Positions 14,400 through 50,349 of a DNA stretch of 56,650 nucleotides are shown here, piece by piece. The stretch is from Phycisphaerae bacterium (GTDB lineage Bacteria > Planctomycetota > Phycisphaerae > Sedimentisphaerales > UBA12454), in the NCBI GenBank assembly GCA_026386845.1, contig JAPLMW010000077.1, positions 1-56,650 of the forward strand. Reading direction: 5' to 3'. Made by a program: the position numbers and the translations under genes. Each line of letters begins with the position of its first letter. Position 1 is the first letter of the stretch. The notes beneath the pieces were generated by a model. That model made no database searches and was not told the DNA's origin. It saw only the letters and a program-made list of their open reading frames with translations.

Positions 14400-14416
14400 A
14401 GCAATAATCGTGCCAA
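14400..14416 (-). promoter_or_regulatory. Sigma-54-type promoter for the flgB operon
   Basis: Minus strand TTGGCACGATTATTGCT, exact match to TGGCACG-N4-TTGCT. Confidence 0.85.
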
Positions 14417-14739: not shown

Positions 14740-14755
14740 TGGCACAGCAGTTGCT
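14740..14755 (+). promoter_or_regulatory. Sigma-54-type promoter for fliK
   Basis: TGGCACAGCAGTTGCT with GG-N10-GC spacing. Confidence 0.72.
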
Positions 14756-17180: not shown

Positions 17181-18458
17181 ATGTTAGCGATTAAAAACAA
17201 CATTATGGCGGGTAATGCTGCCAGACACTTAGGTAAAGCTTATGACCGCTTGGCCCAGAGTGTTGAAAGGCTCGCATCAGGTCTCCGCATAAACAGTGCG
17301 AAAGACGATGCAGCAGGTTTGGCCGTTCGCGAATTAATTCGTGCGGATGTAGCCGTTCTGCAACAGGGAGCTCGTAACGCACAGGATGGCATTAGTATGT
17401 TACAAACAATGGAAGGTGCGATGGGTGTTATCGATGATGGCCTCATCCGAATGAAAGAGCTCGCAGAGCAAGCAGCGACAGGTTCATATTCTGACGCACA
17501 GCGAACTATTATGAACGCTGAATTCGCAGAAATGGCCGCAGAAATCGACCGTGTCGCAGGCGCGACAAAGTTTAATGAAATTGCCATGCTAAACAGCGGT
17601 AGCGGCTCCGTTTCGATTCACGTTGGAACTACCAGCACAATAGATGTTGGCAAGGTCGATATGACAAAGGCAGGTCTTGGCATCAACACCGGTGTCGAGG
17701 TCTATGAAGCCCTCTTTACACCTGAACTGGCCGCCACAAGCACAGGTGCTTTCGTTACTATCACTGGTGAACCTGTATCACTGACAGTCATGTTCGATAA
17801 CAATAGTGCTACTGAAGACGCAATTTCTATTAATTTGACTGTTGGAAGCTACACGATTAGCCAGATTGAAGCTGCCCTCAATGCTGTAAGTGGGGCCCTT
17901 GGCTATGCCCCCGATGGTGACAACAAGAGCTATGACATAGCAACTATTGTAACTAACGATGACGGCACATTCTCACTAAAGGTAGCTTCAAGAGACGAGG
18001 CCGACGGCGTATCAATTAAGGTAGCCAGTTCCACTACTAATGCAACAGGCGACTGGAACCTCGGCGGAACAGGTGACACCGCGACGACTAACGCGGCCGC
18101 AGCAGGTGTTGAAATTAATGTCGATAACTACGCTGCTGAACAGGTAACCGGTGGCGTTAATATCGCAACAGCCGCTGCTGCTGCAACAGCGTTAACTACA
18201 CTTACCGACGCGATCAACCTAAAAGACTCGGCACGTGCGACATTCGGCTACAAGATGAACCGTCTTGAAAGCACGATATCAGTTCTCGATATTCAGGCTG
18301 AGAACCTGATGTCTGCACAAAGCCGTATATCTGATGTCGATGTTGCGACAGAAATGGCCGCATTGACCAGAACACAGGTGCTGTCACAGGCAGGTATCGC
18401 TATGTTGGTTCAGGCCAATACGATGCCTCAGATGGCTCTTACACTTCTCCGCGGCTAA
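17181..18458 (+). CDS. fliC: Flagellin
   Basis: N-terminal SVERLASGLRINSAKDDAAGLAV, C-terminal SRISDVDVATEMAALTRTQVLSQAGIAMLVQAN; strong RBS aaggag. Confidence 0.97.
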   Translation: MLAIKNNIMAGNAARHLGKAYDRLAQSVERLASGLRINSAKDDAAGLAVRELIRADVAVLQQGARNAQDGISMLQTMEGAMGVIDDGLIRMKELAEQAATGSYSDAQRTIMNAEFAEMAAEIDRVAGATKFNEIAMLNSGSGSVSIHVGTTSTIDVGKVDMTKAGLGINTGVEVYEALFTPELAATSTGAFVTITGEPVSLTVMFDNNSATEDAISINLTVGSYTISQIEAALNAVSGALGYAPDGDNKSYDIATIVTNDDGTFSLKVASRDEADGVSIKVASSTTNATGDWNLGGTGDTATTNAAAAGVEINVDNYAAEQVTGGVNIATAAAAATALTTLTDAINLKDSARATFGYKMNRLESTISVLDIQAENLMSAQSRISDVDVATEMAALTRTQVLSQAGIAMLVQANTMPQMALTLLRG

Positions 18459-18568: not shown

Positions 18569-18928
18569 ATGAAGGGCATCGAAACATATCAGGAAAACAC
18601 AATTACCACACAAAATCAGGGCCGTCTCGTCGTTATGCTTTACGAGGGCGCGATAAAATTCTTAAAACTGGCAATCCCTGAAATGAAAACGGGCAACATC
18701 GAAGCAAAGAGTAAATACCTGAACAAAGCCGAGGACATAATAAACGAGCTAAATACTGTTTTGGATATGGAAGCCGGCAGCGAAATCGCGACGAATCTCA
18801 GAGCATTATATATGTTTATGCTTCGCAATCTGCATGAAGCCAATGCAAAACAAGACTCCGGCAAAATTGAGGAAGTAATCAAGCTGTTGGAAGAACTGAA
18901 CCAGAGCTGGAGAGCAATTTCCAGCTAA
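18569..18928 (+). CDS. fliS: Flagellin export chaperone FliS
   Basis: MKGIETYQENTITTQNQGRLVVMLYEGAIKFLKLA. Confidence 0.95.
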   Translation: MKGIETYQENTITTQNQGRLVVMLYEGAIKFLKLAIPEMKTGNIEAKSKYLNKAEDIINELNTVLDMEAGSEIATNLRALYMFMLRNLHEANAKQDSGKIEEVIKLLEELNQSWRAISS

Positions 18929-19039: not shown

Positions 19040-19055
19040 TGGCACAGATATTGCT
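19040..19055 (+). promoter_or_regulatory. Sigma-54-type promoter upstream of the GT41 fusion gene
   Basis: TGGCACAGATATTGCT with GG-N10-GC spacing, ~100 nt upstream of the ATG. Confidence 0.72.
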
Positions 19056-19155: not shown

Positions 19156-22100
19156 ATGGCCAAAAAAAGAAAAAAAAATAAATCCCGTAGAACTCAAAAG
19201 GTTAATTTTTCCGTAAAAAATTCTAACCAGCAAAAGTCCCTTTCATACAATGACTGGAAACCGAATACGCCGATATGGCTTAAGGAGATTCAAACATCTA
19301 TAGATCAAGGAGATATACAAGTAGCTAAAAAATTACTCGCCGAAGAAGAACTCCAAAAAAAACTGGCCGGCCTTAGTAACATATACGACATATATTTTAG
19401 CAAATATGAAATCGCTCTTCAGCTTGTTCGAACTTTTCAGGGGCAAAGAGCCTTACAGTATTGCTTCGATGCCCTTAAGCTCGGGGAATCTGTCGATATT
19501 TATAATGGCATTGGCCTGATTTATGACAGATTAGGTAAATGCTCATTGGCGATTGAAAATCTATATAAGGCTAAGCGGTTAGAACCGAATAATATCGCGA
19601 TATGGAACAATCTTGGCTGCTGCTTTATGAAGGTCGGCAGAGCGCAGGAAGCTATAGATTTATTTAGAAAAGCCATAGCTATCAACCCTAAATATCAGGA
19701 TGCTTATTCAAATTTGCTCTTGAATCTTAATTACCTTCCCGAAGTTGAAGTTGCTGAGATTTTTGAAGAATCAAAAAAAATGGCGCAAATCCAGATGCCG
19801 CCGGCGCTGACCTGTAAAAAATATAACAACTTTCCCGACCCCGATAAAAAACTTCGGATAGGTTATATTTCTCCTGACTTCAAGGTTCATTCGGTGATGT
19901 ATTTCTTCGAATCACTTTTAATGGGACACGACAGAAATAACTTTGAAATTTACGGTTACGGTGACGTTACAAATCCTGATGAGCATACAGGAAAGCTGAT
20001 TGAGAAATTTGATTTTTATCGTAATATCACGAGCGTTGATAACATAGATGCTGTGAAACTTATTAAATCTGATTCAATAGATATCCTCGTCGATTTGTCC
20101 GGCCACACCGGTAGAAATCGACTTGGTGTTCTTGCTTATAAGCCCGCACCCATACAGGTTACTTATCTGGGATATCCAAATACTACGGGAATATCCCAGG
20201 TGGATTACAGGTTCACCGATGCCGTCGCAGATACGCCCGACCAGCAGCAATATTATACGGAAAAACTTGTCTTTCTGCCTAACGGCTTCCTTTGTTATAA
20301 TCCCGGTGATATACAGCCGCCGATTAAAAATTTATCTTCATTAAAAAGGGGATACACTTTATTTGGCTGCTTCAACACTCCCAAAAAGATAAACCATATT
20401 ATAGTAAAGATATGGATTGACGTGCTAAAAAACGTACCAAACTCAAAACTCCTTTTGAAGTTCAAAGACGGAGACGACGAACAGATTAAGGAATATCTCT
20501 GGAATCTATTTGCTGAACATGGCCTCAAAGACCCCAAAAAGGATGTAATGATTTTTGGGGCTATACCTTATGAAGCACACCTCGACACTTATAATTCAAT
20601 TGATATTGCTCTCGACACATATCCCTACAATGGCACTACCACTACCTGCCAGGCGCTTTTCATGGGGGTGCCTGTCATCACTCTTACCGGCAAAAACCAT
20701 GCTTCACGGGTCGGGCTTGATATACTCAGCAGACTTGATATGCAGTTCTTCTCCGCTCAATCTCCTGAAGAATATGTCAAAAAGGCCGTTGCTCTTGCCT
20801 CAAAGCCGGAGGCTCTTGCGAAAATTCGAACTTTTATGCGTCAAAGACTTGCTGCAAGCCCCCTGTGCAATTACAAACTCATTACTAATGATATCGAAAA
20901 TGCATATCGGAAAATGTGGCATCAATGGTGCCAATCCCAAAAAGACTTCCGCCCGACTGATTATGCCACATGTGACAAAACAGCCGAGATTGCTGCAGAC
21001 GGCCTTAATTTCACAAATATTAAAACAACAAAAGTGGGAGATATTTCAGTAGGATTCAACGACAAGTATGTCATAAAAATTGAACACGGAAAACACCCCT
21101 GGAAATTAAGAACATTTTCAGAAGAAATTGAAATAATAAAACTTTTGAACTCCAGAGGATGCGTTTCCTGCCCCAGATTGATGTCCGAAGGAAAGTTGAA
21201 AAACGGCGAGCGATACTTTATACAGGAAAGATTTAACAACCGGAGAGCATTCAATACCGCTGATATAATGTTTTCGATACTTGAGCAGAAAAGTTTTGGT
21301 GTTTGCCAGGGTGACTTCAAGAGAGATAACTTTATATTAGATAACGATTCCATCTGTCACATCATCGACTATGACCAGGCAATATACGATGAGCGATTCA
21401 TTGATATGGGTAACCTCCAATATTTAGAGTGGTTTAATCAATTCTTCGTAAACAGATGGAAAAAATTAGGCCTGAACCTCGGCAACATTTACAACTTTGG
21501 CGGATTTCAAAAAGAAGAGGTTCTCAGCATGTTCAAAAATAACTCATTTAATTTGGCCGAAACCTCAATATTTAAAGAACAAATAACCACCAACACAAAA
21601 AGTGGTATTTATCATAGCCTCAATACCTCCCAAATTTATATAAACGGTGCACGCGATTTAAGCTCAAGGCTGGACGCTTTGAGCAATATTAAATTCGAAA
21701 AGGACGAAAAAGTTCTGGATGTCGGCTGTAATATGGGGCTGCTTGGTCATTACTTACACGATAGAGGATGCAAAGTAACAGGTGTTGATATGGATAAGAA
21801 AATAGTAACTGGCGCCAAAATGGTTGCCAATATTCTCAATAAGGACATCCAATTCAAACATTTAGACCTGGACACCGCAAGAATCGAAGAAGAGTACGAT
21901 ACCATCTGTCTTTTTTCTGTAATTCATCATGTGGCAAATTTTCAGCAGGCAACAGAAAATATAGCGCAAAAATGTAACAGAGTCATATTGGAATGTTCGC
22001 TGCAGGAACATGGGGCAAAACCTGTCCAGGGTAGATGGATGCAGTCAAGCGGATGGGAGTTTAATTGCAGCAGTGAACTAATTAATTATCTTGAAACAGC

Positions 22101-22209
22101 CTTCAAGGGATTTAAATTTCAAAAGTATCACGGCAACGTAGATAGACAGAGAGCAATAATGACTTTCGTCAAGGAACCGCAGATGGCCGCCAGTAAAATA
22201 TGCAATTAA
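19156..22209 (+). CDS. TPR + SPINDLY-type O-GlcNAc transferase (GT41) + kinase-like domain + class I SAM methyltransferase fusion; candidate flagellin glycosylation enzyme
   Basis: TPR repeats; RIGYISPDFKVHSVMYFF and DILVDLSGHTGRNRLGVLAYKPAPIQVTYLGYPNTTG; QGDFKRDNFILDND...IIDYDQA; VLDVGCNMGLLGHYLHDRGCKVTGVDMD. Start chosen at MAKKRKKNK after aaagggcgg. Confidence 0.88.
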   Translation: MAKKRKKNKSRRTQKVNFSVKNSNQQKSLSYNDWKPNTPIWLKEIQTSIDQGDIQVAKKLLAEEELQKKLAGLSNIYDIYFSKYEIALQLVRTFQGQRALQYCFDALKLGESVDIYNGIGLIYDRLGKCSLAIENLYKAKRLEPNNIAIWNNLGCCFMKVGRAQEAIDLFRKAIAINPKYQDAYSNLLLNLNYLPEVEVAEIFEESKKMAQIQMPPALTCKKYNNFPDPDKKLRIGYISPDFKVHSVMYFFESLLMGHDRNNFEIYGYGDVTNPDEHTGKLIEKFDFYRNITSVDNIDAVKLIKSDSIDILVDLSGHTGRNRLGVLAYKPAPIQVTYLGYPNTTGISQVDYRFTDAVADTPDQQQYYTEKLVFLPNGFLCYNPGDIQPPIKNLSSLKRGYTLFGCFNTPKKINHIIVKIWIDVLKNVPNSKLLLKFKDGDDEQIKEYLWNLFAEHGLKDPKKDVMIFGAIPYEAHLDTYNSIDIALDTYPYNGTTTTCQALFMGVPVITLTGKNHASRVGLDILSRLDMQFFSAQSPEEYVKKAVALASKPEALAKIRTFMRQRLAASPLCNYKLITNDIENAYRKMWHQWCQSQKDFRPTDYATCDKTAEIAADGLNFTNIKTTKVGDISVGFNDKYVIKIEHGKHPWKLRTFSEEIEIIKLLNSRGCVSCPRLMSEGKLKNGERYFIQERFNNRRAFNTADIMFSILEQKSFGVCQGDFKRDNFILDNDSICHIIDYDQAIYDERFIDMGNLQYLEWFNQFFVNRWKKLGLNLGNIYNFGGFQKEEVLSMFKNNSFNLAETSIFKEQITTNTKSGIYHSLNTSQIYINGARDLSSRLDALSNIKFEKDEKVLDVGCNMGLLGHYLHDRGCKVTGVDMDKKIVTGAKMVANILNKDIQFKHLDLDTARIEEEYDTICLFSVIHHVANFQQATENIAQKCNRVILECSLQEHGAKPVQGRWMQSSGWEFNCSSELINYLETAFKGFKFQKYHGNVDRQRAIMTFVKEPQMAASKICN

Positions 22210-22654: not shown

Positions 22655-22966
22655 ATGGAGCTGATAAAACAGATTAAAGAAGCCGAAAACAAGGCAAAAA
22701 AGCTGGTAGAAGATGCGCAAAAATACGCCTCCGAGGCAGTTGAAAATGCTAAGCAGGAGGGAAAGCGGCAGCTCGAACAGGCTGCCCGGCAGCGGAAAGA
22801 GGCTATTACTGGGGCGGAATCTGCGAGCGAAAAAACCGGTCTTGCTGAGGCCGAGCAATTAAGAAAAAAATCAGCCCAGATAAAACAGCAGCTTGAGCAA
22901 AAGGTTACGGCAAGAACGGATACAGCGGTAAAAACGATAATTGATTTTATAAAAAACCAGGGTTGA
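22655..22966 (+). CDS. V-type ATPase stalk subunit G/H-like coiled-coil protein
   Basis: ~100-aa coiled coil directly upstream of subunit I. Confidence 0.72.
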   Translation: MELIKQIKEAENKAKKLVEDAQKYASEAVENAKQEGKRQLEQAARQRKEAITGAESASEKTGLAEAEQLRKKSAQIKQQLEQKVTARTDTAVKTIIDFIKNQG

Positions 22967-22986
22967 TAAATATTTTCATATAACCG

Positions 22987-24987
22987 ATGGCTATAGCACA
23001 AATGAAAAAAGTTATAATCGCCAGCTTCAGAGATGAAGCGGGCGAACTCCTCGAAGCGATTCAGCAGGCCGGCATAATGCAGGTGCTCGACGCCCAGCGT
23101 GCCGTCATCAGTAAAGACCGGCCCGAATTGCAAGGCTCCGCAGAGCGGCCGCCCTCGGCTTCGCCGCGAGGCGAGCGACAAATTGAGGAAAGACTGGAAA
23201 AACTGGAACAGACTATCGACTTTTTGAATATATACGCCGAGAAAAAAACCGGCCTGGCTGCGGCACTTGCGCCGAAAGCTGTTATCGACCAGAACCATTT
23301 TGCAAAAATCGTAAGCAGCGCAAACGCGATGGACAGGCTCGAATCCTGCCAGCAATCGCAGAAAAAGATACATAACCTTACGACAGAGATTGAAAATCTC
23401 TCGGCACAAATACAGCATCTTGGGCCGTGGGAAAACCTCACAACTCCACTGGAAGAAATGGAGCAATTGCAGAAAACCACTGTCTTAGCGGGCTTTTTGT
23501 CTGCGAAAAGCATTATTGAGGCAGAAAAAAATCTCGCTGAACTGGCCATTGTTGAAAGTATAGGAAGACATAACAATTCTGCGGCCTGTATAGTTGCATG
23601 CTTTAGAGAAAACGCACAGGAAGTACACAAGATTCTGCGAGAACTTGAATTTGAAGCGGTTGGTTTTACCGGGCTAAAGGGCATAGCCGCCGAACTTATA
23701 AGAGAATATCAGGAAAAACTGGCTTCTGCACGGGACAAACTGGCCAAGGCCGAAAAAGAGGCAAAGATATTAAGCGAAGGAATAATTGATTTGCAGATAC
23801 TGGCGGATTACTATCGAAATCTGCTCAGCCGCAATAAAACGCAACTGACCTCACCACAGACCGAACAGGCAATTATTCTTGAAGGGTGGGTCAAAAGCGA
23901 GGATTTTGAAAGATTAAAACAAATCGTTAAGAGGTTTTCCGCTTCAAATATAAGCGAAATGCAGATTGGAAAAGATGAGGATATACCGGTTGAAATTGTT
24001 AATAAGCCGTTGTTCAGGCCGTTTGAGGTGGTTATGCGGCTTTACGGCATGCCGCAGCATATCGAATTTGATCCGACTGTACTCTTGACTCCGTTCTTTG
24101 TCGTGTTCTTTGGCTTATGTGTAGGCGACGTCGGCTACGGACTGATAATAATCGCAGCAATGGCTTACTTTATCGTGAAAATGCAGGGCGACAAAAAACT
24201 GCTGTGGCTCCTGCTTATCTGTTCAATATTTGCTGTCGGGGCAGGTGTAATGACAGGCAGTTATTTCGGCGATGCGCCGCAACAGCTATCTGAAAAATTC
24301 GGCTGGACTTTTCTGGTCAAAATCCAGAAGAAACTGATGTGGTTCGACCCACTGGCACAGCCGATGATATTTTTCAAGCTGTCCCTGGGGCTGGGATATT
24401 TTCAGATAATGACCGGCATAGTTGCTGCGTTGATACATAATATCAGAAGAAGAGATTTTATTTCTGCGCTGTGCGACCGGATAACGTGGCTGGTGATGCT
24501 TAACTGCCTTGTTCTTTACTTTCTCGGAGGCAGAATCGGCTTAAGCGACAAAACCTGTTCGCTTCTCGGCAAAGTCGCGATTGCCCCTGCCATTATTATC
24601 GTCCTCTTCAGTCAACGACAGGGCAATTGGGCGGGCAGAATCGGCATGGGAATATATAATTTATTCAGTACGGTATTCTATGTGGGTGATGTGCTGAGCT
24701 ATCTGCGGCTTATGGCGCTCGGAATGGTCGGAAGCGGAATGGCAATGGCAATAAACATTATGGCCAAACTCGCCGGCGAAATCCCTTATGTGGGCGTCAT
24801 CATTGCGATTGTAATACTGATTGGGGGCCATCTTTTTAATGCGCTGATGTCCACGATTGGTGCGTTTGTTCATACAATCCGGCTTCAGTTTGTAGAGTTC
24901 TTCCAGAAATTCCTTGTCGGCGGCGGACGATTGTTCGAGCCGCTGAATAAGGAATATAAATACGTTTATATAAATGTAAAAAAGTAA
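22987..24987 (+). CDS. ntpI: V-type ATP synthase subunit I
   Basis: Long coiled-coil N-terminus and TM C-terminus with GDVGYGL and SYLRLMALGMVGSGMAMAIN. Confidence 0.94.
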   Translation: MAIAQMKKVIIASFRDEAGELLEAIQQAGIMQVLDAQRAVISKDRPELQGSAERPPSASPRGERQIEERLEKLEQTIDFLNIYAEKKTGLAAALAPKAVIDQNHFAKIVSSANAMDRLESCQQSQKKIHNLTTEIENLSAQIQHLGPWENLTTPLEEMEQLQKTTVLAGFLSAKSIIEAEKNLAELAIVESIGRHNNSAACIVACFRENAQEVHKILRELEFEAVGFTGLKGIAAELIREYQEKLASARDKLAKAEKEAKILSEGIIDLQILADYYRNLLSRNKTQLTSPQTEQAIILEGWVKSEDFERLKQIVKRFSASNISEMQIGKDEDIPVEIVNKPLFRPFEVVMRLYGMPQHIEFDPTVLLTPFFVVFFGLCVGDVGYGLIIIAAMAYFIVKMQGDKKLLWLLLICSIFAVGAGVMTGSYFGDAPQQLSEKFGWTFLVKIQKKLMWFDPLAQPMIFFKLSLGLGYFQIMTGIVAALIHNIRRRDFISALCDRITWLVMLNCLVLYFLGGRIGLSDKTCSLLGKVAIAPAIIIVLFSQRQGNWAGRIGMGIYNLFSTVFYVGDVLSYLRLMALGMVGSGMAMAINIMAKLAGEIPYVGVIIAIVILIGGHLFNALMSTIGAFVHTIRLQFVEFFQKFLVGGGRLFEPLNKEYKYVYINVKK

Positions 24988-25029
24988 AAGGAAAAATAAA
25001 ACTAACGTATCATAGAAAGGATTTAACTT

Positions 25030-25560
25030 ATGAGCATTGAATATCTTGGAAATGCTTTGGCACTGACGGGTGCGGCGATGGCGGTGTTCCTGTCCGGCAT
25101 AGGTTCCGGAATCGGATTAAGCATCTCCGGCGGCGCATCAGCCGGGGTGCTGACGGAAAAACCGGAGCGTTACGGCCTGAACTTTATTATGGTGGTTCTG
25201 CCGGGAACGCAGGGTTTTTACGGCTTTTTAGGCGGCTTTATGGTCCTGCAGAACCTCGGATTTTTCGATGTGTCGTATAAGATACATCTGAACTGGCAGC
25301 AGGGTCTGGCAGTCCTCGCAGCCTGTCTGCCGGTTGCTTTTGCCGGACTGGTAACCGCGATTTATCAGGGCAAAATGGCCGCAAGCGGCATCATAATGAC
25401 AGCCAAACGGCCGGAAATGGCATTCAAGGCAGGCGTAGTATACACCGTTATGATAGAGGTCTATGCAATTCTGGGGCTTTTGGCATCTTTGCTTATAATT
25501 AACAACGCTGTGGACTGGCAGGCATTGAAAACAGCGGCACAGACGGCTGTGGGCGGCTGA
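25030..25560 (+). CDS. ntpK: V-type ATP synthase subunit K
   Basis: Duplicated hairpin, LPGTQGFYGF, IYQGKMAASG, MIEVYAILG. Confidence 0.95.
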   Translation: MSIEYLGNALALTGAAMAVFLSGIGSGIGLSISGGASAGVLTEKPERYGLNFIMVVLPGTQGFYGFLGGFMVLQNLGFFDVSYKIHLNWQQGLAVLAACLPVAFAGLVTAIYQGKMAASGIIMTAKRPEMAFKAGVVYTVMIEVYAILGLLASLLIINNAVDWQALKTAAQTAVGG

Positions 25561-25563
25561 TTT

Positions 25564-26148
25564 ATGGATGCAAACCAGGTAGTAGAAAAAATTCTCGCCC
25601 AGGGGCGGGCCGAGGCGGAAAAAATAAAAGCCCAGGCGGATGAAAAAATAAAGGCCCTCAAGGAAGCCTGCGGAGAAGAATTGTCGAAATACCGGCAGGA
25701 AACCCAGCGGCTGGCCCGCATCGCAGGCGAAGAAAAAAAGAACAGGGTCCTCGCCGCCGCCAGAATTGCCATCGCAAAGGAAATAACCGAGGCAAAAAGA
25801 AACCTGCTCAATACGGTAATTGAAAAGACGGGCCGAAATATCAAAAGCCTGGGCGACAGTGAATATCTCTCGATTATGGAAGGTCTGATACTGCGTTCCG
25901 TAAAAACCGGCAATGAAGAGGTCGTTATAGATAAAAATGAAAAACGCATCAATGAAAACTTCATTCGTAATGTTAACCAGAAACTGGCCGACAGGGGCAA
26001 TCTTCGTCTGGCCTCTGACAGAGCTGATATCAAAGCGGGATTTATATTGAGACAGGGCAAAGTACGGAGCAATGCCGCTCTTGATGTGCTGCTCAAGGAA
26101 GCCTGCGGGCAGCTTGAAGGCAGGCTCGCTGAGCAATTGTTTGGATAA
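25564..26148 (+). CDS. ntpE: V-type ATP synthase subunit E
   Basis: Coiled-coil peripheral stalk protein with E-subunit C-terminus; position after K. Confidence 0.88.
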   Translation: MDANQVVEKILAQGRAEAEKIKAQADEKIKALKEACGEELSKYRQETQRLARIAGEEKKNRVLAAARIAIAKEITEAKRNLLNTVIEKTGRNIKSLGDSEYLSIMEGLILRSVKTGNEEVVIDKNEKRINENFIRNVNQKLADRGNLRLASDRADIKAGFILRQGKVRSNAALDVLLKEACGQLEGRLAEQLFG

Positions 26149-26152
26149 AAAT

Positions 26153-27187
26153 ATGCCGATTCTTTCAGAACAACCTTTGTTGTATTTCAATTTGTATCCG
26201 CCCATAGGAGACTGCGACTGGCGATACACATTTGCCACTGCGCAGGTCAGGGCTATGGAAGACAGGATGCTTGCGGCACAGTTTTTCTCGGAACTGGCAA
26301 ACGCAAAGGATATAAACGAAGCTGCGGAAATGCTTGCCGGCACTGAATATGCTATTTCATCACGGATAACCGATGAGGATATAGAACAAATGCTCTGCCA
26401 GAAACGAACAGAAACCAGGGTATTTTTCGAGCAGTTAGTAATAGACGATAAAATCATACAATTGTTTCGGGCAAAGATTGACTTTGCCAATCTGCGGCTC
26501 GCTGTCAGAAGATTTGTTCTTAAAAGGCCGCTTGGCAGCGATTACTGCTGGGAAGGAAATGTCCTGCCGGAAAAGTTCGAGCAGATATTCGAGCAGGAAA
26601 ATTCCAGCGGCCTGCCGGAATATTTTCAGCAAGGTATCGAAGCGGGCATCGTCGGGTATTACAAAAACAAAAACGTCCGCGATATAGACCTCGAAATCGA
26701 CAAGGTTGAGGCGGACTGGCTGCTAAAGTTAGCCGGCGGTATCGGCAGCATTTTTCTGCAGGAGCTGCTGCGGATGCAGACTGATTTGATAAATATCCGA
26801 ACAATGATGCGGATGAAATTCACCGGCCTGCTGAACACAGATGTTTTTCTGCGAGGCGGATATATTGAAAAATCGAGGCTCGTTCAGTGTTCTGACATCG
26901 GATATGAGGCATTGGCACAGCACTTTTACGCAACGCCTTATTATCATTTCATCGAAGTCGGCGTAAATTATCTGGAGAAGGAAGACTCATTTTTGAAATT
27001 CGAGGCGGTTTGCGATGAGCATCTGCTCGGATTCCTGAAAACAACCAGATATATAACGGCAGGAGTGCAGCCGATTATCGCACACCTGCTTTTAAAAGAG
27101 CATGAAATAAGAATGGTAAGAACGGTTCTTGCCTGCAAAAGAGCGAATATTGAACCAAAAGTAATCCTTGACAGGATTGTAGTCTGA
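26153..27187 (+). CDS. ntpC: V-type ATP synthase subunit C/AC39
   Basis: YTFATAQVRAMEDRML...IRTMMRMK...KEHEIRMVRTVLACKRANI; start trimmed to MPILSEQ. Confidence 0.88.
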   Translation: MPILSEQPLLYFNLYPPIGDCDWRYTFATAQVRAMEDRMLAAQFFSELANAKDINEAAEMLAGTEYAISSRITDEDIEQMLCQKRTETRVFFEQLVIDDKIIQLFRAKIDFANLRLAVRRFVLKRPLGSDYCWEGNVLPEKFEQIFEQENSSGLPEYFQQGIEAGIVGYYKNKNVRDIDLEIDKVEADWLLKLAGGIGSIFLQELLRMQTDLINIRTMMRMKFTGLLNTDVFLRGGYIEKSRLVQCSDIGYEALAQHFYATPYYHFIEVGVNYLEKEDSFLKFEAVCDEHLLGFLKTTRYITAGVQPIIAHLLLKEHEIRMVRTVLACKRANIEPKVILDRIVV

Positions 27188-27189
27188 TT

Positions 27190-27513
27190 ATGCAGGGAAA
27201 AGTAGCAATACTTGGCAGTGCGGATTTTGTTATGCCTTATTCGGCGCTCGGCGTTGATTGTTTCGTCGTCGGCGACAAGGCTGATAAGATACTCCGGACG
27301 GCTGAAAAAATCGCCGCTGAAAAATACGCAATTATAATCGTGGCGGAAAACATCGCGCACAAAACTGAAGAAGTTTTCAGGCAGTTCAGCACAAAAACAA
27401 CGCCTTGTGTTCTTGTTGTGCCGTTTACGACAGAATCGGCTGGTTTTGCCGTTGAAAGTCTCGGCAAACTTTTAAAAGCCGCTACAGGAATAAATATCTT
27501 ACAAAATACTTAA
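27190..27513 (+). CDS. V-type ATP synthase subunit F
   Basis: ~107 aa, [25 protein letters not shown]; position between C and A. Confidence 0.85.
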
Positions 27514-27529
27514 TATAACAGGACTGATT

Positions 27530-29311
27530 ATGGCAGAAGCAAAAACAGGAAGAATAATAAAAGTCGCCGGCCCGGTTGTCGCGGCCGAAGGTATGCTCGG
27601 TTCACGAATGTATGACGTCGTGCGGGTCGGAAAGCAGAATCTCATCGGCGAAATCGTCGAGCTTAAAGGCGATACGGCAAACATTCAGGTTTACGAGGAT
27701 ACTATCAGTATCGGGCCGGGCGAACCCGTCGTCAACACAGGTGCACCGCTGAGCGTTGAGCTTGGCCCGGGTTTGATAGGAAGCATTTACGACGGCATCC
27801 AGAGACCGCTTGACCAGCTCTATAAAGTTCAGGGAGATTATATTCTTCGCGGCAGTCAGCTTCCGGGCTTGAACAGGGAAAAGAAATGGCACTTTAAGCC
27901 TGTTATTAAAAACGGCGCCGAAGTTTCCGGCGGCGATATAATCGGCCAAGTTCAGGAAACCGAACTGCTGCTGCACAAAATTATGATACCCGCCGGCATA
28001 AAGGGCAAAATCGACGAATTGAGCGAAGGCGACTTTACCGTTGAACAGAAAATTGCAACAGTTACAGCCGGCAGCGGCCAAAAACACGAAATTAAAATGA
28101 TGCAGAAATGGCCTGTGCGCATGGGAAGGCCGGTAAAGCAAAGGCTCGCCCCCCACACCGTTTTGCAGACAGGTCAGCGTGTTATCGACACATTTTTCCC
28201 GATAGCCAAGGGCGGCACCGCCTGTGTGCCGGGACCTTTCGGCGCAGGAAAAACCGTCGTTCAGCACCAGCTTTCCAAATGGATCGATGCGGATATCGTT
28301 GTCTATGTCGGCTGCGGTGAAAGAGGCAACGAAATGACGGATGTGCTGATAGAATTTCCGCAGTTAAAAGACCCCCGCAGCGGCCAGCCCCTGATGAAAC
28401 GTTCGGTTCTTATCGCAAATACCTCGAATATGCCCGTAGCGGCAAGAGAAGCCTCCGTTTACACAGGCATTACAATTGCCGAGTATTTCCGCGATATGGG
28501 TTATACGGTGGCGCTTATGGCGGACTCTACAAGCCGATGGGCTGAAGCGATGAGAGAAATATCTACAAGGCTCGAAGAGATGCCCGCGGAAGAAGGTTAT
28601 CCTGCTTATCTGGCTTCGAGAATCGCATCGTTTTACGAACGAGCCGGCAGAACCGAATGCCTCGGAAAACCCGCCCGAGAAGCCTCCCTTTCGATAATTG
28701 GAGCGGTAAGTCCGCCAGGCGGCGATTTGTCTGACTCGGTTGTGCAGGCCACGCTGCACGTCGTCAAGGTCTTTTGGTCGCTGGTGGGCAAACTTGCTTA
28801 TCAGAGGCATTTCCCCGCTATCGACTGGCTGACAAGCTATTCATTCTATAAACAATACCTGGCCGGCTTTTTTGAAAACAAAGAAAAAGGGCAGGAAATG
28901 GTGGCTTTGGCTCAGGAAGCAATGAGCCTGCTGGAGCAGGAATCGCAGCTTGCCGAAATCGTAAGACTCGTCGGCTCTGAAGCGATAAGCCCTGCCGACA
29001 GAATGGTGCTTCAGACGGCAAAAAGCATCCGTGAAGATTATCTGCACCAGAACGCATTTCACGAAATCGACACATATACCTCAATGGAAAAACAGTTCGA
29101 AATGCTTAAAACTATACTCTACTTCCATAAAAAAGGTCTTGAGGCTATCGAAAAAGACGTTGATACGGAAGTAATTTTCAAGCTCGCCGTTACTGAAGAT
29201 ATCGCACGAGCCAAATATGTACCGGAAAACCAGATGGAAACAATCACAAAAATACGAAATAAAACAGACGAGCAATTCAAAGCTCAATTTGCAGGAGCAA
29301 AAAATGCTTAA
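27530..29311 (+). CDS. ntpA: V-type ATP synthase catalytic subunit A
   Basis: P-loop GPFGAGKTV and A-subunit signature sequence. Confidence 0.97.
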
Positions 29312-30683
29312 GGAATACCAGACAGTAAACAGTATAAGCGGCCCTTTGATGATGGTGGAATCTGTCGACGACGCTCGTTACGGCGAGGTAGTCGAGATAG
29401 AAATCGGCGACGGCTCAATCCGGCACGGCCAGATACTCCAGGTCGAAAGGGACAAAGCACTTGTCCAGGTTTTCGAAGGCACTGAAGGTATTGATATCGA
29501 CTCCTGCACGGTTAGACTGCTCGGCAGACCGCAGCAGCTCGCCGTTTCGCCGGATATTCTCGGCAGGGTCTTTAACGGCACCGGCGAACCAAAAGACGGC
29601 GGAGCAAAAATAATCGCTGAAAAACTTATCAATATAAACGGCAATCCAATCAATCCCTACAGCAGGGATTACCCCAATGAATTCATTCAGACAGGCATTT
29701 CAACAATTGACGGCTTAAATCCGCTTGTTCGCGGCCAGAAGCTCCCCGTTTTCAGCGGCTCAGGTCTGCCGCACGATGAAATAACCGCTCAGATTGCAAG
29801 GCAGGCGACGGTGCTCGGCAAAGGCGAGCAGTTTGCGGTTGTTTTTGCCGCGATGGGTATAACATTTGAAGCCGCACAGTTTTTTATCAACGACCTGACA
29901 AACAGCGGCGCAATCGAAAGAGCCGTAATGTTCATCAATCTCGCCAACGACCCGGCAATTGAGCGAATCGCGACTCCAAGAGTCGCTCTTACGGCGGCTG
30001 AATATCTTGCGTTCGAAAAGGATATGCACGTTCTTGTCGTTCTGAATGATATGACTAATTACTGTGAAGCTCTGCGGCAGATAAGCGCAGCACGAAAAGA
30101 AGTGCCCGGCAGGCGAGGCTATCCGGGCTATCTCTACACTGACCTTGCTACGATTTACGAACGCGCAGGAAGAATCAAAAATAAAAAAGGTTCGATTACG
30201 ATGGTGCCGGTTCTGACAATGCCCGAAGACGATAAAACTCATCCTGTGCCGGATTTGACCGGCTATATCACCGAAGGCCAGATAATTCTTTCGCGTTCAC
30301 TGCACCGCAAGGCCATTGCTCCGCCGGTCGATGTGCTGCCGAGTCTTTCAAGACTGAAGGACAAAGGCATCGGCAAAGGCAAAACACGCGAAGACCACGC
30401 CGATTTATACAATCAGCTTTATGCAGCTTATGCCCGCGGCAAGGAATGTCAGGAGCTTGCGACAATTCTCGGCCAGGCCGCCTTGTCGGAAGAAGACAGA
30501 AAATATATGACATTCGCGGATGAATTTGAAAAACGTTATATCTCACAGGGATATTACGAAAACAGAACCATCGAACAGACTCTCGACCTCGGCTGGGAAC
30601 TGCTAAGTATGTTTGAGGACTCCCAACTGAAACGTATTCGTGTCGAATTTCTCAAAAAATATATGCCGAAGTTCAGGAAATAG
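29304..30683 (+). CDS. ntpB: V-type ATP synthase subunit B
   Basis: [22 protein letters not shown]; starts 8 nt before the subunit A stop. Confidence 0.97.
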
Positions 30684-30688
30684 TCCCG

Positions 30689-31309
30689 ATGCAGACAAGT
30701 ATAAATGCAACAAGAATAGAATTGCTTTTACTGCGAAGGCGTATCGCGCTGGCGGTAAGGGGACATAAGCTGCTGAGCGACAAAAGGGATGAAATCTCAA
30801 GGCAGTTAATACAGATTTCAAGGCAGCTCGGCTCACTGAGAAAAGAAGTTGAAAGCCGGCTTATTGAGACATCGAGACGGTTTGTAATGGCAAGAGCCGT
30901 GATGGAACCTGAAAACATAAAATCCGCAATGGAAGTCGCCACCAAAAAATTCAGTCTTGCGGTCAGTTTCAGCAGCATAATGAGCGTCAAGGTCCCCAGA
31001 TTCTCCAAGGAAATCCAAGGCGAGATAATCAGCTATGGCTTCGCAAATACCAGCGGCGAACTTGATATCGCTCTTAAGGGTCTGGAAAAAGTTTTTGATA
31101 AACTGCTTGAGCTTGCTGAAAAGGAAAAACAGGCACAGCTCCTGGCAGACGAACTCCAGAAGACACGACGGCGGGTAAATGTACTTGAATACGTCGTTAT
31201 TCCTGAACTGCAGCAGATGATTCGATTTATATACGACAAACTCGCCGAGGTTGAACGCGACAATATAAGCAGGCTGATGAAGATTACCGAAATGATAAGG
31301 GCAGTCTGA
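30689..31309 (+). CDS. ntpD: V-type ATP synthase subunit D
   Basis: MQTSINATRIELLLLRRRIALAVRGHKLLSDKRDE and RRVNVLEYVVIPELQQMIRFI. Confidence 0.95.
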   Translation: MQTSINATRIELLLLRRRIALAVRGHKLLSDKRDEISRQLIQISRQLGSLRKEVESRLIETSRRFVMARAVMEPENIKSAMEVATKKFSLAVSFSSIMSVKVPRFSKEIQGEIISYGFANTSGELDIALKGLEKVFDKLLELAEKEKQAQLLADELQKTRRRVNVLEYVVIPELQQMIRFIYDKLAEVERDNISRLMKITEMIRAV

Positions 31310-41265: not shown

Positions 41266-42672
41266 GTGTTAAAGCAATATGCAATTTTTGTGTCTTTGTT
41301 TCGCTCGGCTAACGACATTTGTATCACAGGCTGTATCTGGCTTTTTGTCTTCTATTTCAGATTCCTGTCAGGATTATTTGCCACACCTAAGGGAATACCG
41401 GATTTCAAAAGACATTTGGCATTAACTCTTCCGGTAGTCCTGATTTGCTATCTGAGCTGTCTGCTTACCGGTCTATATAAGCCCAAAAGAACACAAAATA
41501 TATTTTTCCAGCTTGTGGATATTTGCAAAGCCAGTCTCTACAACGGATTTTTTTTATTGGCATTTTTTTACTATCTCCAGAATGTTCCATATTCACGCAA
41601 ACTATTAACCATGTTTATACTTATGTTATTTGCAGGCTTGTTCTTTTCACATTTGTTCACAATGGCAATAATGCGACATCTGCGTGCGAAAGGATACAAC
41701 CTGCGATATTATATTGTAATAGGAGCCAGTCAAAAAGGTCAACAACTTGTCCGTGACATCGAACAGATGGGGTGGCTGGGGTTAAAGTGTGCTTTTTTTG
41801 TGGACGATAATCCAAGTTGCATTGGCACTGAATTGCTTGGAGTGCCTGTATATGGTCCTATTGATAGACTAACTGAATTAGTCAAAACCAGCGTAATAGA
41901 CGAAGTCTACCTTACCTTAGGCGGAAATGAGGCACAAAAAGCATACCCGAGCCTCAAAGCCATTCAATCTTCAGGTACAACGATACGCATTATGCCGGAC
42001 TGGGGCGACCTGACTTCGGTAAGTGCTATTACCATTATAAGCATAGGTTCTAATATTCTATTTTCCGCGGCAGATTCTCCGCTAAGCGGTGCCAATATAA
42101 TTTTAAAGGAAATTTTTGATCGTGTTATTGCTCTAATATTATTAGTTTTATTTGCAGTACCGATGGTAGTCATAGCTGTTTTAATCAAGCTGACTAGTAA
42201 TGGGCCGGTGTTCTATAAACAGAAGCGAATGGGAATAGGTCAGAAAGAATTCGAGATAATCAAATTCCGGACTATGACAGTGGATGCCGAAACCGAAACC
42301 GGTCCTCAATGGGCCAAACACAATGATATCAGGCGTACGTTTATTGGGGTGTGGCTGCGCCGCATCAGCCTTGATGAACTTCCTCAACTTATAAATGTAG
42401 TAAAGGGCCAAATGAGCCTGGTCGGCCCGAGGCCGGAGCGTCCGGTTTATGCAAAACAATTCTCTGAAGAATACAAAAATTATATGCTTAGACACAAGGT
42501 CAAAGCAGGCATGACCGGCTGGGCGCAGGTGCATGATTTACGCGGGGACACATCTCTTAGAAAAAGGTTGTTATATGACCTGCATTATGTCAGAAATTGG
42601 TCATGGATGCTGGATATATGGATTTTGCTGCGCACACCATGGCATGTTATAAAAGGTAAAAACGCATACTAA
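41266..42672 (+). CDS. Undecaprenyl-phosphate sugar phosphotransferase (WbaP/WcaJ-type initiating transferase)
   Basis: FDRVIALILLVLFAVPMVVIAVLIKLTSNGPVFYKQKRMGIGQKEFEIIKFRTM...LVGPRPERPVY. Confidence 0.95.
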   Translation: MLKQYAIFVSLFRSANDICITGCIWLFVFYFRFLSGLFATPKGIPDFKRHLALTLPVVLICYLSCLLTGLYKPKRTQNIFFQLVDICKASLYNGFFLLAFFYYLQNVPYSRKLLTMFILMLFAGLFFSHLFTMAIMRHLRAKGYNLRYYIVIGASQKGQQLVRDIEQMGWLGLKCAFFVDDNPSCIGTELLGVPVYGPIDRLTELVKTSVIDEVYLTLGGNEAQKAYPSLKAIQSSGTTIRIMPDWGDLTSVSAITIISIGSNILFSAADSPLSGANIILKEIFDRVIALILLVLFAVPMVVIAVLIKLTSNGPVFYKQKRMGIGQKEFEIIKFRTMTVDAETETGPQWAKHNDIRRTFIGVWLRRISLDELPQLINVVKGQMSLVGPRPERPVYAKQFSEEYKNYMLRHKVKAGMTGWAQVHDLRGDTSLRKRLLYDLHYVRNWSWMLDIWILLRTPWHVIKGKNAY

Positions 42673-42674
42673 AA

Positions 42675-44165
42675 ATGACTTCTGAACAATCAGTCAAACA
42701 TAAAGATTTTATCAACATTTTAATACTGCTTGCAGCAACGTTATGCATCGGCGTATATTTAATTGCTACAACAGTTTTGATAGCTAATGACGGCTGCTAC
42801 AACATACAACTTGCCCAAAATTTTGCAAAAGACCCCATTGGCATAATAAAAACATCTTATTTCGCTTATCCCTTTCTTATTCTTTTAACACATAAACTGG
42901 TTCTATTATTTACCAACGACAACTCTATTCAAACATGGATATATTCGGCTCAAAGCATGACATTATTATTCAGATTGCTTGCTATTATACCTTTGTATTT
43001 TATCGGTAAAATACTGGTTAGAGAGAAACACAGCTTTTGGGGAATATTAATTTTAATTTTCCTGCCATATCCGGCAGAATACGGCAGTGATGTTCTTCGC
43101 GAATGGCCGCATCTTTTTTTTCTGGCGACAGCTCTTTTATTCCTAATTTATGGAAGCATTCTGGGGAACTGGTGGATGTTTGCAACTGCAGGATTATTTA
43201 CAGGCTTTGGATATATGATAAGGCCTGAGTGCGCCCAAATCGTATTGTATGCAATGCTTTGGTCATTAGTTGGCTTATTCATTCCAAAGCCTGGTATTAG
43301 CAGGGTTAAAGTTGTTTGTTTGACGTTAATTTTAATCGTTGGATTTTTGATGCCGGTTGTTCCCTATTCTAAAATAAAAGGTGAAATTTTACCCCCAAAG
43401 CTAAAAGCTGTTATAAGCTTCGATAAGAATTGTCAATCCGAAAGAGTTGAAAGGCCGGCTTACATAGCATCCGTAATGCCGAAAGATATACTAAAGGCTT
43501 TAGGTAAATTTACGGAGAGAATTGGTGAAAATCTGATGTATTTTTTTATGCTGCCGTTAATAATTGGTCTTTATTATCATTTCCGAAGGCCAAAGGAATT
43601 TCTGACGGACAGCAGATTATTTATATTGGCTTTGATAATTTTATACGTAGCAATGATGTTGCTGCTGCATATCAATTATGGCTATATAAGCAGAAGACAC
43701 TTTATGCCGATGATTGCCTTTACTGTTTTTTATATACCGACAGGCCTTGTTATAATTGCAGACTGGATAAGCGGAATTAATATAACAGAAAATGAGAATA
43801 AACAGAAAAATACACAAAAATGGTTTTTCATTTTATTGACAGTGGGAATGCTGATTTGTCTTGTGAAGCTATCGGGGCTTATTAGTGAAAAAAGGCAGGG
43901 CTACAGAGATGCAGCAAAATGGTTGAAGGAAAATACTGCTCCGGCGGATATTATAGCCGTGCCGGATATGCGGATAACTTTTTATGCTCAGCGAGAAGGG
44001 GTGATATATGAGAACGAAAGTATTCCATCCAGTGCTGTATATGTTGTGAAAATATTGAAAAATCCAAAAGATGAAGCGGCAATAGCAGAACTGTCAGGTA
44101 AAGTAGTATACAAATATACCGATGAAAGGGAAAAAACTATCAACATGGTTATATATAGAAAGTGA
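42675..44165 (+). CDS. GT39/ArnT-like membrane glycosyltransferase
   Basis: Multi-TM with ANDGCYNIQLAQNFAKDPIG N-terminal loop and LREWPHL. Confidence 0.75.
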   Translation: MTSEQSVKHKDFINILILLAATLCIGVYLIATTVLIANDGCYNIQLAQNFAKDPIGIIKTSYFAYPFLILLTHKLVLLFTNDNSIQTWIYSAQSMTLLFRLLAIIPLYFIGKILVREKHSFWGILILIFLPYPAEYGSDVLREWPHLFFLATALLFLIYGSILGNWWMFATAGLFTGFGYMIRPECAQIVLYAMLWSLVGLFIPKPGISRVKVVCLTLILIVGFLMPVVPYSKIKGEILPPKLKAVISFDKNCQSERVERPAYIASVMPKDILKALGKFTERIGENLMYFFMLPLIIGLYYHFRRPKEFLTDSRLFILALIILYVAMMLLLHINYGYISRRHFMPMIAFTVFYIPTGLVIIADWISGINITENENKQKNTQKWFFILLTVGMLICLVKLSGLISEKRQGYRDAAKWLKENTAPADIIAVPDMRITFYAQREGVIYENESIPSSAVYVVKILKNPKDEAAIAELSGKVVYKYTDEREKTINMVIYRK

Positions 44166-44203
44166 TAAGTGTATATCGTAAGAAAAATAAGTTACCAGGA
44201 TGA

Positions 44204-45100
44204 TTATAGATACGTATCATGTTTCTTGTGGAATAATATCTGGTAATACCAGCCAAGTTTAAAAGCAATTACTTTTATGGTAAATTCGGCAAACATCGCA
44301 ACTATACAATACGGCATTCGTTCCTTCCAGAATGTTTTTACGCCAGCTTTTAACATATCACCGCTGTAATTATTAAGACCAGCATGCTTGAGAATCCATT
44401 TGTTGTCGGCAAAGAATCGTCCAATATTAAAATAACGTTTAAACGTTTGCGGTAAAGAAAATGGGTGGCTGTGATAGACTTTTGCCGCTGCTGAGTAATA
44501 AACCGAATAATCATTGATAATGGCCTTAGCAGCAAAAAGCATATCTTCATTTACAATGACATTATTTTTGAATCCATCCAATTTGTTAAAGATAGAGCAA
44601 CGAATGGCTGAGCATGTATTAGAACAGAAAAAAGTTTTCAGACCCAGGGTTTTAATATCATTCTTGGTTTTTAGAATGGACTCGGCAGGATAGTTAAACT
44701 CCCGTGCAAAGCGTTCCAGAGGAGCGGCATTCGGTCTGGGCAATTGGCGACCATAGCACATAGCTATCTTCGAGTCCGCTTGCATAGGTCCTATTAGTTC
44801 GGCAATCATATGTTCATCGACAGGGGTTGCATCCTGAGTGAGAAATATCGCGAATTCACCTGAGATTTCAGACGCTGTCAGGTTTCTTGTAGTTCCATGA
44901 TCAAAATTGGCACGGTTAATTGTGATTACTTTGCAGTTTCGGCTTTCGGCAAGTTCTGCTGTTCCGTCGGCAGATTCAGAGTCAACTACCAAAATTTGGG
45001 CAGGTTTTACAGTTTGTTTTTGCAATCCGTCCAGCAGGCTCGAAAATTCACGACCTGCATTATAGGTAAAAATAAGAACAGAAATTTTCTTTTCAATCAT
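44204..45100 (-). CDS. GT2 glycosyltransferase, rhamnosyltransferase-like
   Basis: ISVLIFTYNAG..SLLDGLQKQTVKPAQILVVDSESADGT, FLTQDATP. Confidence 0.88.
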   Translation of the reverse strand: MIEKKISVLIFTYNAGREFSSLLDGLQKQTVKPAQILVVDSESADGTAELAESRNCKVITINRANFDHGTTRNLTASEISGEFAIFLTQDATPVDEHMIAELIGPMQADSKIAMCYGRQLPRPNAAPLERFAREFNYPAESILKTKNDIKTLGLKTFFCSNTCSAIRCSIFNKLDGFKNNVIVNEDMLFAAKAIINDYSVYYSAAAKVYHSHPFSLPQTFKRYFNIGRFFADNKWILKHAGLNNYSGDMLKAGVKTFWKERMPYCIVAMFAEFTIKVIAFKLGWYYQILFHKKHDTYL

Positions 45101-45139
45101 AGATTTTTAATTTTATGAAAAAACAATTTATGGCAACTT

Positions 45140-46078
45140 TCATACGAACAAAAACAATTTAATATTTCTCAGAAAACCCATTTTCAAAAAGCTATATTTT
45201 ATTAGATTCAATCTTTTAATAAAAAAACTTTGCCGGTCAAGAGTTGAATATACATTCAATGAATCTATATCTTTTTCTGTTAATTCATCTCTGAAAATAT
45301 CTAAAAAAGCTTTTGCCTGCTGTTGGGTTTTTTGCAAAATACTTTTAAGATTACTCCTGTTTAATCTTGCCATATTCATTATATAACCCAAGTTCCACTC
45401 TTTGGCGCCGATGTTATTGCTATCATGCTGTCTGTATAATATAGTGGCTCTCGGCACATAATCAATTTTACCAAACGCAGCGGCTGCAAGAGATATCCAC
45501 CAGTCATACATGATCGTTTGCTCCGGCAGCAATTTAATCTTGCCTTTTAATGTTTTGTTTATCATCACCGTGCATCCGGTTATGGCATTTTGGACCAGCA
45601 ATCTATTTAAAGTTTTTCCTTTTTGAGGAGCCAAGTGCTGATATTTCCAAAACGAGTTAGAAACTATATCAAGATTTTTATCAACTACCTTAAGGTCTGT
45701 ATGGATTAATACTGGGATATCCACGCCAAATTCTTCTTCGATCTCTCTCATTTTATTAAAAGTAATCTCAATTTTGTCTGATAACCATATGTCATCCTGA
45801 TCACAAAACATAACATAGTCTGTATCAGCATGGTTAAGAAGGCGTAAGAAATTTTGCGAAGTGCCGATATTGCTATCTCTATCTGATACTAATTTGATCT
45901 TCTCGGGATATCTCTGAGTATATTCCTTTATTACATCCTGTGTGTTATCTCTGGAATTATCGTCCCGTATGGTCAGCTGCCATTCTTTATAGCTTTGTCC
46001 AAGTATAGATTTTATTTGATCAGATAAATATTGCCCCCCACTATAAGTGGCCATAATTATTGAAATTTTAGGAAACAT
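45140..46078 (-). CDS. GT2 glycosyltransferase
   Basis: ISIIMATYSGGQYLSDQIKSILGQSYKEWQLTIRDDNSRDNT, DYVMFCDQDDIW. Confidence 0.9.
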   Translation of the reverse strand: MFPKISIIMATYSGGQYLSDQIKSILGQSYKEWQLTIRDDNSRDNTQDVIKEYTQRYPEKIKLVSDRDSNIGTSQNFLRLLNHADTDYVMFCDQDDIWLSDKIEITFNKMREIEEEFGVDIPVLIHTDLKVVDKNLDIVSNSFWKYQHLAPQKGKTLNRLLVQNAITGCTVMINKTLKGKIKLLPEQTIMYDWWISLAAAAFGKIDYVPRATILYRQHDSNNIGAKEWNLGYIMNMARLNRSNLKSILQKTQQQAKAFLDIFRDELTEKDIDSLNVYSTLDRQSFFIKRLNLIKYSFLKMGFLRNIKLFLFV

Positions 46079-47000
46079 GTGAAAATATCTTAAACCACCT
46101 GTATGTTTTCTTAAGCCCTTTTTCTAAATCAATACCAGCATACCAGCCAATTTTCTTCGTTTTACTTATATCCAGGGATCGTCTAATATTACCATCGGGT
46201 TTGGTGGTATCGTATATTATTTCCCCTTCAAAACCAACAACGTTTTTGATACATACTGCTAATTCTTTGATTGAGGTTTCAATACCGGTACCGATGTTAA
46301 TAATATCATTCAAGTTATATTTCTGCATAAGAAAAATGCAAGCATTCGCCACGTCATCGGCATATATAAATTCCCGCTTTGGCTTGCCTGTACCCCATAT
46401 TGTCACGCTATCGGCGTGGGTTAACTTTGCCTCGTGAAATTTTTTTATAAGGGAAGTTAACACATGCGCATTTTCATCGTAGTGATCATTGACACCATAA
46501 ACATTCGCCGGGACAACGGAAATAAAATTCGTTTTATATTGACAGTTATACGCTTGACACATCTTAAAGCCTGCCAGCTTTGCGATCGCAAATGGCGCAT
46601 TTGTCGGTTCAATTGCCCCAGTTAAAATGTATTCCTCTTTCATTGGCTGCTTACAAAACTTCGGATACACACAGGAACTTACCAAAAAAAGAAGTTTTTT
46701 TACTCCATATTTGTAGGCAAGGTCAATGATATTTGTCTGGATCATAATATTTTCGTAGATAAATTCGGCAGGATATGTGCTGTTAGCGTAGATACCGCCG
46801 ACTTTTGCCGCTGCTAAAAAAATATACTCCGGTTTTTCCTTACGAAAAAAGTCTTCGGTTCTTTTGCGGTTAATAAGATCGAGTTCTGTGTGACTCCTGG
46901 TTAAGATGTTTTTATAGCCCTGCAAATTCAAGTTTCTTACGATAGCAGAGCCTATAAGACCGCTATGGCCGGCAACATATATTGTAGAGTCTTTTTTCAT
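46068..47000 (-). CDS. GDP-L-fucose synthase-like SDR, catalytic Tyr replaced by Phe; possible epimerase-only enzyme
   Basis: YVAGHSGLIGSAIVR, SSCVYP, EPTNAPFAIAKLAG, NAHVLTSLI. Confidence 0.88.
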   Translation of the reverse strand: MKKDSTIYVAGHSGLIGSAIVRNLNLQGYKNILTRSHTELDLINRKRTEDFFRKEKPEYIFLAAAKVGGIYANSTYPAEFIYENIMIQTNIIDLAYKYGVKKLLFLVSSCVYPKFCKQPMKEEYILTGAIEPTNAPFAIAKLAGFKMCQAYNCQYKTNFISVVPANVYGVNDHYDENAHVLTSLIKKFHEAKLTHADSVTIWGTGKPKREFIYADDVANACIFLMQKYNLNDIINIGTGIETSIKELAVCIKNVVGFEGEIIYDTTKPDGNIRRSLDISKTKKIGWYAGIDLEKGLKKTYRWFKIFSHVS

Positions 47001-47005
47001 CTTCG

Positions 47006-48199: not shown

Positions 48200-48377
48200 T
48201 CGTTTTCTCCATAAAAATGGCATTAATCAAATTACTCTTCATATTGGGCGACAACACTTTAAATACACTGATTCTGCAGAAATAAGCCTGATAAACTATT
48301 CCTTTTATAAGAAGCTGCAGTTGTTGTTATATCTTTTTTGCTTTGCCCACCACCGCTCCGTGGTTGATAACAAAAGA

Positions 48378-49142: not shown

Positions 49143-49200
49143 TTTATTATTTGCCCCTCCAGGTATTTACCGGCAGAACCAAACTTTTACTTTCGATCAA

Positions 49201-50328: not shown

Positions 50329-50349
50329 TTTTTCAATCTCCTTTATTAG

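Follow-up and report, generated by a model that had tools for sequence, protein, structure and literature searches.

The window, which is the whole 56.65-kb stretch of DNA analysed here and contig C8 of the genome of an uncultured planctomycete (G000), carries a flagellin locus composed of: (i) fliC (17181-18458, +), which encodes a flagellin of 425 aa that matches the NCBIfam flagellin models and is the proposed substrate, (ii) fliS (18569-18928, +), which encodes the flagellin export chaperone (TIGR00208, 112 bits vs. a cut-off of 53.75), and (iii) an open reading frame (ORF) at 19156-22209 (+), 0.2 kb downstream of the fliC-fliS pair, which encodes an enzyme of 1017 aa with a TPR - GT41 - kinase - methyltransferase (MT) layout. 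An earlier, sequence-only reading of this DNA placed the enzyme directly after flagellin and fliS, as is the case, and proposed a sigma-54-like promoter of the type found at flagellar operons. The latter is upheld by a promoter-like site, TGGCACAGATATTGCT, located 100 bp 5' of the ATG (19040-19055, +), which reads TGGCAC-N5-TTGCT and is an exact match to TGGCACN5TTGCW. The window has three exact sites compared to 0.06 expected, none of 100 shuffles reached three, and all three precede flagellar-type genes. The other two are back to back (14400-14415, - and 14740-14755, +) between two genes named flgB-like and fliK-like from their sequence only. Past the enzyme gene, after ~0.45 kb, starts an operon (22655-31309) that, by sequence alone, reads as a V/A-type ATP synthase.

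The ORF runs without an internal stop across 1017 codons. The ATG at 19156, rather than an upstream TTG, is supported as the start by close homologues from other genomes, whose alignments begin at residue 1 or 2 of the enzyme. Pfam matches of the full-length protein include Glyco_transf_41 (2e-52), TPR, Methyltransf_23 (2.9e-10) and APH (6e-5), which bears out the sequence-only description of one intact polypeptide with TPR, GT41, kinase-like and SAM methyltransferase parts. The TPR repeats (residues ~114-187; 19495-19716, +; Pfam TPR_1 1e-12 and TPR_12) are followed by a SPINDLY-like GT41 domain (residues ~229-595; 19840-20940, +) that matches AtSPY at 2.3e-95 when taken as a domain, an APH-type kinase domain (residues ~615-808; 20998-21579, +) and a class I SAM-dependent MT domain (residues ~833-977; 21652-22086, +). 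The same TPR-GT41-kinase-MT fusion is present in an independent genome (G016) at 55% identity; this recurrence, together with the lack of stops, rules out an assembly chimaera or a frameshift as the origin of the fusion. A phage or plasmid origin is also rejected: the whole protein has no phage match, plasmids return only generic methyltransferases, and one weak match is to a viral contig. Among the open-access papers searched, no description of the architecture was found.

The GT41 enzyme is linked to flagellin well beyond the window. Strong matches occur in 38 of the 161 genomes of the order, and in 27 of these 38 the GT41 gene has fliC on its own contig at a distance of no more than ~15 kb, a count made by hand from the locus outputs in which several of the remaining GT41 genomes are short contigs or contig ends. 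The usual gene order in the linked genomes is fliC-fliS-GT41, and a sigma-54 site between the fliS and GT41 genes is also found in L050, L051, L052, L053, L056, L057 and L058. By contrast, a flagellin is near GT41 in only 2 of 20 control loci from the rest of the phylum. Thus, the sequence-only expectation that homologues would not lie mostly away from flagellins holds within the order but fails elsewhere in the phylum. The GT41 gene is accessory within the order; genomes G093 and G129 encode flagellins ~74% identical to that of the window and have no such GT41 gene beside fliC-fliS. Genomes that have GT41 do not differ significantly from those that lack it in the Ser/Thr content of their flagellins (p = 0.17). 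In the window genome, the single GT41 gene and the single flagellin match (E <= 1e-40) adjoin; this arrangement, the sigma-54 site and the order-wide linkage agree with the sequence-only choice of flagellin as the likely target, and flagellin is very probably the substrate.

Other arrangements of these genes are also observed. Outside of the order, a further case of linkage is L147:4000-6549, where two TPR-GT41 genes come after the gene for a flagellin of 849 aa. In G053, the genes after fliC-fliS form a long tandem GT41 array (L075:1443-20000 and L076) with some twelve catalytic domains, a number of them in double-GT41 proteins, and similar arrays are found in G083, G084 and G085. In G086, two fliC-fliS pairs lie in tandem (L124:8361-12288), and no GT41 was found in the stretch read.

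The C-terminal half of the flagellin-linked GT41 enzymes is exchangeable, with at least five kinds of module observed. The tails include: (i) kinase+MT (window and G016), (ii) a second GT41 (L050 and L051), (iii) an FkbM methyltransferase without a kinase (L053 and L055), (iv) two sulfotransferase-like domains (L063 and L067), (v) FkbM with a sulfotransferase (L066), and (vi) a GT8-like module (L058 and L095), named from the sequence alone as Pfam gave no family there. The fusions of GT41 to Pfam Sulfotransfer_1 (L063:5033-8809, L067:5883-9488 and, with FkbM, L066:14550-18605) suggest that some flagellin glycans are sulfated. The GT41 domains nearest to that of the window (67-70% identity) carry other tails or none. 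In a maximum-likelihood tree, the window GT41 groups with L050-L053 (support 100/100), and a single clade for both triple fusions is rejected (log-likelihood difference 116, p-AU 4e-62). The tree and the sister enzymes with other tails rule out the kinase+MT half as a fixed part of the GT41 family of the window. The triple fusion is better seen as one member of a flagellin-linked GT41 family with exchangeable finishing modules.

Among the several tails in the order, the kinase+MT half would thus represent a mobile cassette for tailoring. It occurs in 3 of the 161 genomes of the order (the window genome, G016 and G068); no full-length match was found in 392 genomes of the phylum, nor in 397 genomes of the class except the window genome and G016. 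In all three copies the kinase precedes the MT and the two are joined. The cassettes are 66-67% identical to one another, compared to 54% for the GT41 domains of the two GT41 fusions, and their G+C content (~38% in each copy) is below that of the host loci (42-44%). The cassette is joined to at least three scaffolds, since the GT41 lineage of the G016 fusion is other than that of the window and the G068 copy resides in a GT2 polyprotein of 2530 aa with several GT2 domains. All three cassettes lie in flagellar islands. The G016 fusion gene comes fourth and last in a series of GT41 genes and lies ~18 kb beyond fliC-fliS, and the G068 gene (L049:6803-14395, -), which encodes TPRs in addition to the GT2 domains and the cassette, is between flgK/flgL and fliD. 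No flagellin gene was found in the stretches read of the G068 contig.

Of the domain claims, that of the kinase has the weakest sequence support. The APH profile matches the kinase segment alone at 7.2e-7 (29.6 bits vs. a curated cut-off of 23.2), and Pfam APH is matched by each of the three cassettes known. Five residues (K641, E657, D720, N725 and D738) are invariant in an alignment of the three kinase homologues; by motif, K641 is the predicted ATP-binding Lys, D720 and N725 the predicted catalytic Asp and Asn, and D738 the predicted metal Asp. By motif, the catalytic Lys and Asp, on which the sequence-only reading had made the kinase depend, are in place. Solved kinases are matched weakly (best 0.0055, to eukaryotic kinases), and two AlphaFold models from one sequence have a pLDDT of 33 and 35, too low for reading a fold. 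The MT domain has the motifs DVGCNMG (855), GVDMD (876) and SVIHH (921). Its similarity is generic (UbiG and TehB), and WbdD is among its PDB matches at 2e-5, in an aligned stretch that does not cover the phosphate-pocket residues 31-36 and 194-197 of WbdD.

Enzymes that combine a kinase with an MT are known from O-antigen synthesis. WbdD, which caps the Escherichia coli O9a O-antigen with methyl phosphate, phosphorylates the terminal mannose and then methylates the phosphate (PMC3482155). Like WbdD, the window enzyme has a kinase and a class I MT in one chain. Unlike WbdD, which has no glycosyltransferase (GT) and the order MT-kinase, its kinase is APH-like by sequence and its predicted target is a protein-linked sugar; as the kinase comes before the MT, the window protein is not classed as WbdD. 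ORF6 of Klebsiella pneumoniae O7 has GT2 domains and a methyltransferase-kinase in one polypeptide, with a kinase that resembles AmiN, and makes methyl phosphate on the repeat-unit acceptor of the rhamnose-containing O7 glycan in vitro (PMC11231755). Compared by description, ORF6 is similar to the window enzyme in its single chain of GT, MT and APH-like (AmiN-like) kinase and its deoxyhexose acceptor, and is nearest to the G068 version of the cassette protein. By contrast, the window enzyme has GT41 in place of GT2, the reverse of the MT-kinase domain order, and a link to flagellin rather than O-antigen. With both domains in one chain and the catalytic residues present, WbdD-like work of a kinase and methyltransferase on a glycan, as the sequence-only reading had it, is supported by analogy, and phosphorylation and methylation of a sugar are predicted from the likeness to WbdD and ORF6.

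A tentative proposal is that the enzyme decorates flagellin as a single polypeptide, by transfer of a sugar from a GDP-sugar to Ser/Thr followed by phosphorylation and methylation. The TPRs would bind cytoplasmic flagellin that is unfolded or in complex with FliS, and the SPINDLY-like GT41 would glycosylate Ser/Thr residues of this flagellin from a GDP-sugar donor, for which GDP-L-fucose is the most likely candidate. The tethered kinase domain would phosphorylate a hydroxyl of the flagellin-linked sugar, and the MT domain would then methylate the phosphate, to form a WbdD-like cap, or the sugar. The kinase probably acts on the sugar. Placement of the methyl group on the phosphate, judged by analogy, has about an even chance.

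The position of the methyl group separates this proposal from a rather unlikely alternative, in which flagellin is glycosylated and the MT O-methylates the sugar, while phosphorylation by the kinase is either an independent modification of that sugar or comes first, with the free sugar as substrate, such that no methyl-phosphate diester is made. The similarity of the MT to WbdD is no greater than that to O-methyltransferases such as UbiG, an FkbM-type methyltransferase occurs in sister enzymes that have no kinase, and methylation of a sugar hydroxyl would be as compatible with the MT sequence as a methyl-phosphate product; however, the kinase and MT are joined in the same order in all three copies despite their differing scaffolds, which suggests one two-step reaction.

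The proposed use of a GDP-sugar follows from the GT41 domain. SPINDLY of Arabidopsis, an O-fucosyltransferase, is the best solved relative of the enzyme (8.7e-117) and is by far nearer than human OGT (5.9e-71). The assignment to GT41, made in the sequence-only reading, is confirmed by Glyco_transf_41 and by H245 and K411, which align with the catalytic-site positions H495 and K665 of SPINDLY (SPY), with the refinement that the domain is SPINDLY-like rather than OGT-like. The enzyme shares the TPR and GT41 layout of SPINDLY and conserves H495, S496, V497, K665, K689, Y744, T747 and T748 (SPY numbering). It is unlike SPINDLY in that it is bacterial, linked to flagellin, and joined to a kinase and methyltransferase, with Gln in place of E752 and Thr in place of A731. 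Human OGT has the GT41 family and TPR layout in common with the window enzyme, but its similarity is lower and its R904 and C917 are missing here. Residues K689, A731 and Y744 of SPY are reported to separate the users of GDP-fucose from those of UDP-GlcNAc (PMC10027727). These correspond to K435, T478 and Y491 of the window enzyme, such that two of the three (Lys and Tyr) are of the SPINDLY type and the third, Thr478, is neither the Ala of SPY nor the Arg of OGT. Y744 is also singled out elsewhere, where a Tyr at this site is argued to clash with GlcNAc (PMC9715652).

The source of a GDP-sugar is suggested by two genes. A GDP-L-fucose synthase gene (fcl; 46068-47000, -), whose product is 49% identical to E. 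coli Fcl (E 9.7e-99) and scores 438 bits against the NCBIfam model GDPFucSynFcl, under the equivalog cut-off of 500, is a possible donor source, and a GDP-mannose 4,6-dehydratase gene (gmd) that scores above its curated cut-off is on contig C1 of the same genome. Thus, the window genome can plausibly make GDP-fucose. The fcl gene sits in a glycan cluster, which may use GDP-fucose for something else. This biosynthesis cluster (41266-51282) encodes a bacterial sugar transferase, two GT2 enzymes, the GDP-fucose synthase, a DegT aminotransferase, an NTP transferase, a GHMP kinase and an epimerase.

The sequence-only reading had GT41 add GlcNAc from UDP-GlcNAc, followed by phosphate and a methyl cap, to yield GlcNAc-phosphate-methyl on flagellin. 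Several points favour such a product: OGT belongs to GT41, UDP-GlcNAc is a general bacterial metabolite, type A flagellin of Clostridioides difficile carries GlcNAc-phosphate (PMC10714395), and there are prokaryotic TPR-GTs of an intermediate group whose specificity residues are mixed (PMC10027727). Against it stand the closer relation to SPINDLY, K435 and Y491 at the sites of SPY K689 and Y744, the missing R904 of OGT, the predicted clash of the Tyr with GlcNAc, and the presence of gmd and fcl in the genome, which make GlcNAc improbable as the added sugar and disfavour an OGT-type donor. Fucose or another GDP-sugar is the likelier choice, since the domain is SPINDLY-like, the Lys and Tyr are kept, and fcl is in the window with gmd elsewhere in the genome. 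A donor of the GDP-fucose type is therefore probable, if not certain given the mixed prokaryotic group.

Phosphate is known in some flagellin glycans, including the GlcNAc-phosphate of C. difficile and the glycan of Pseudomonas aeruginosa b-type flagellin, a deoxyhexose with phosphate (PMC11833859). As predicted for the window, these systems extend a flagellin monosaccharide by phosphate and methylated material, with genes in a flagellin glycan cluster. They differ in using separate enzymes and other GTs. In the current model of both, the phosphate is drawn from CDP-threonine and enters together with threonine, the methyls are on threonine, and a kinase takes no part (PMC10714395, PMC11833859); the window enzyme does not match this C. 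difficile-type mechanism.

It is quite improbable that the substrate of the cassette is not a flagellin-linked sugar but a surface polysaccharide, a lipid-linked glycan or a protein side chain, with its place beside fliC down to chance. In favour of this reading, O-antigen chains are the substrates of WbdD and ORF6, and the G068 cassette lies among GT2 domains and nucleotide-sugar genes. Against it, the cassette is fused twice to flagellin-linked GT41, flgK/flgL and fliD lie on either side of the G068 copy, and the window gene has the sigma-54 site common to flagellar genes.

For the order as a whole, the decoration of flagellin by a GT41 enzyme with a finishing tail may, as a possibility not yet favoured, amount to a combinatorial and horizontally exchanged flagellin glycan code, in which a SPINDLY-like enzyme adds the first sugar, a swappable tail finishes the glycan, and the window version is a methyl-phosphorylated O-fucose. 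Bacterial SPINDLY-like GT41 genes are widespread, and very few are characterised (PMC10027727). If the proposal is true, methyl-phosphorylated O-fucose on flagellin would be a cap new to glycoproteins, and bacterial SPINDLY-like enzymes would gain a first class of natural substrate. Substrate and donor are directly testable, because the lone GT41 of the genome adjoins its lone flagellin. If the methyl-phosphate step is right, capping of the WbdD type, known for O-antigens, would also work on glycoproteins. From the exchangeable tails, a general scheme suggests itself: a single protein both initiates and completes a flagellar glycan, with different lineages exchanging the chemistry of the last steps. 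As speculation, pressure from phages or grazers may be behind this exchange.
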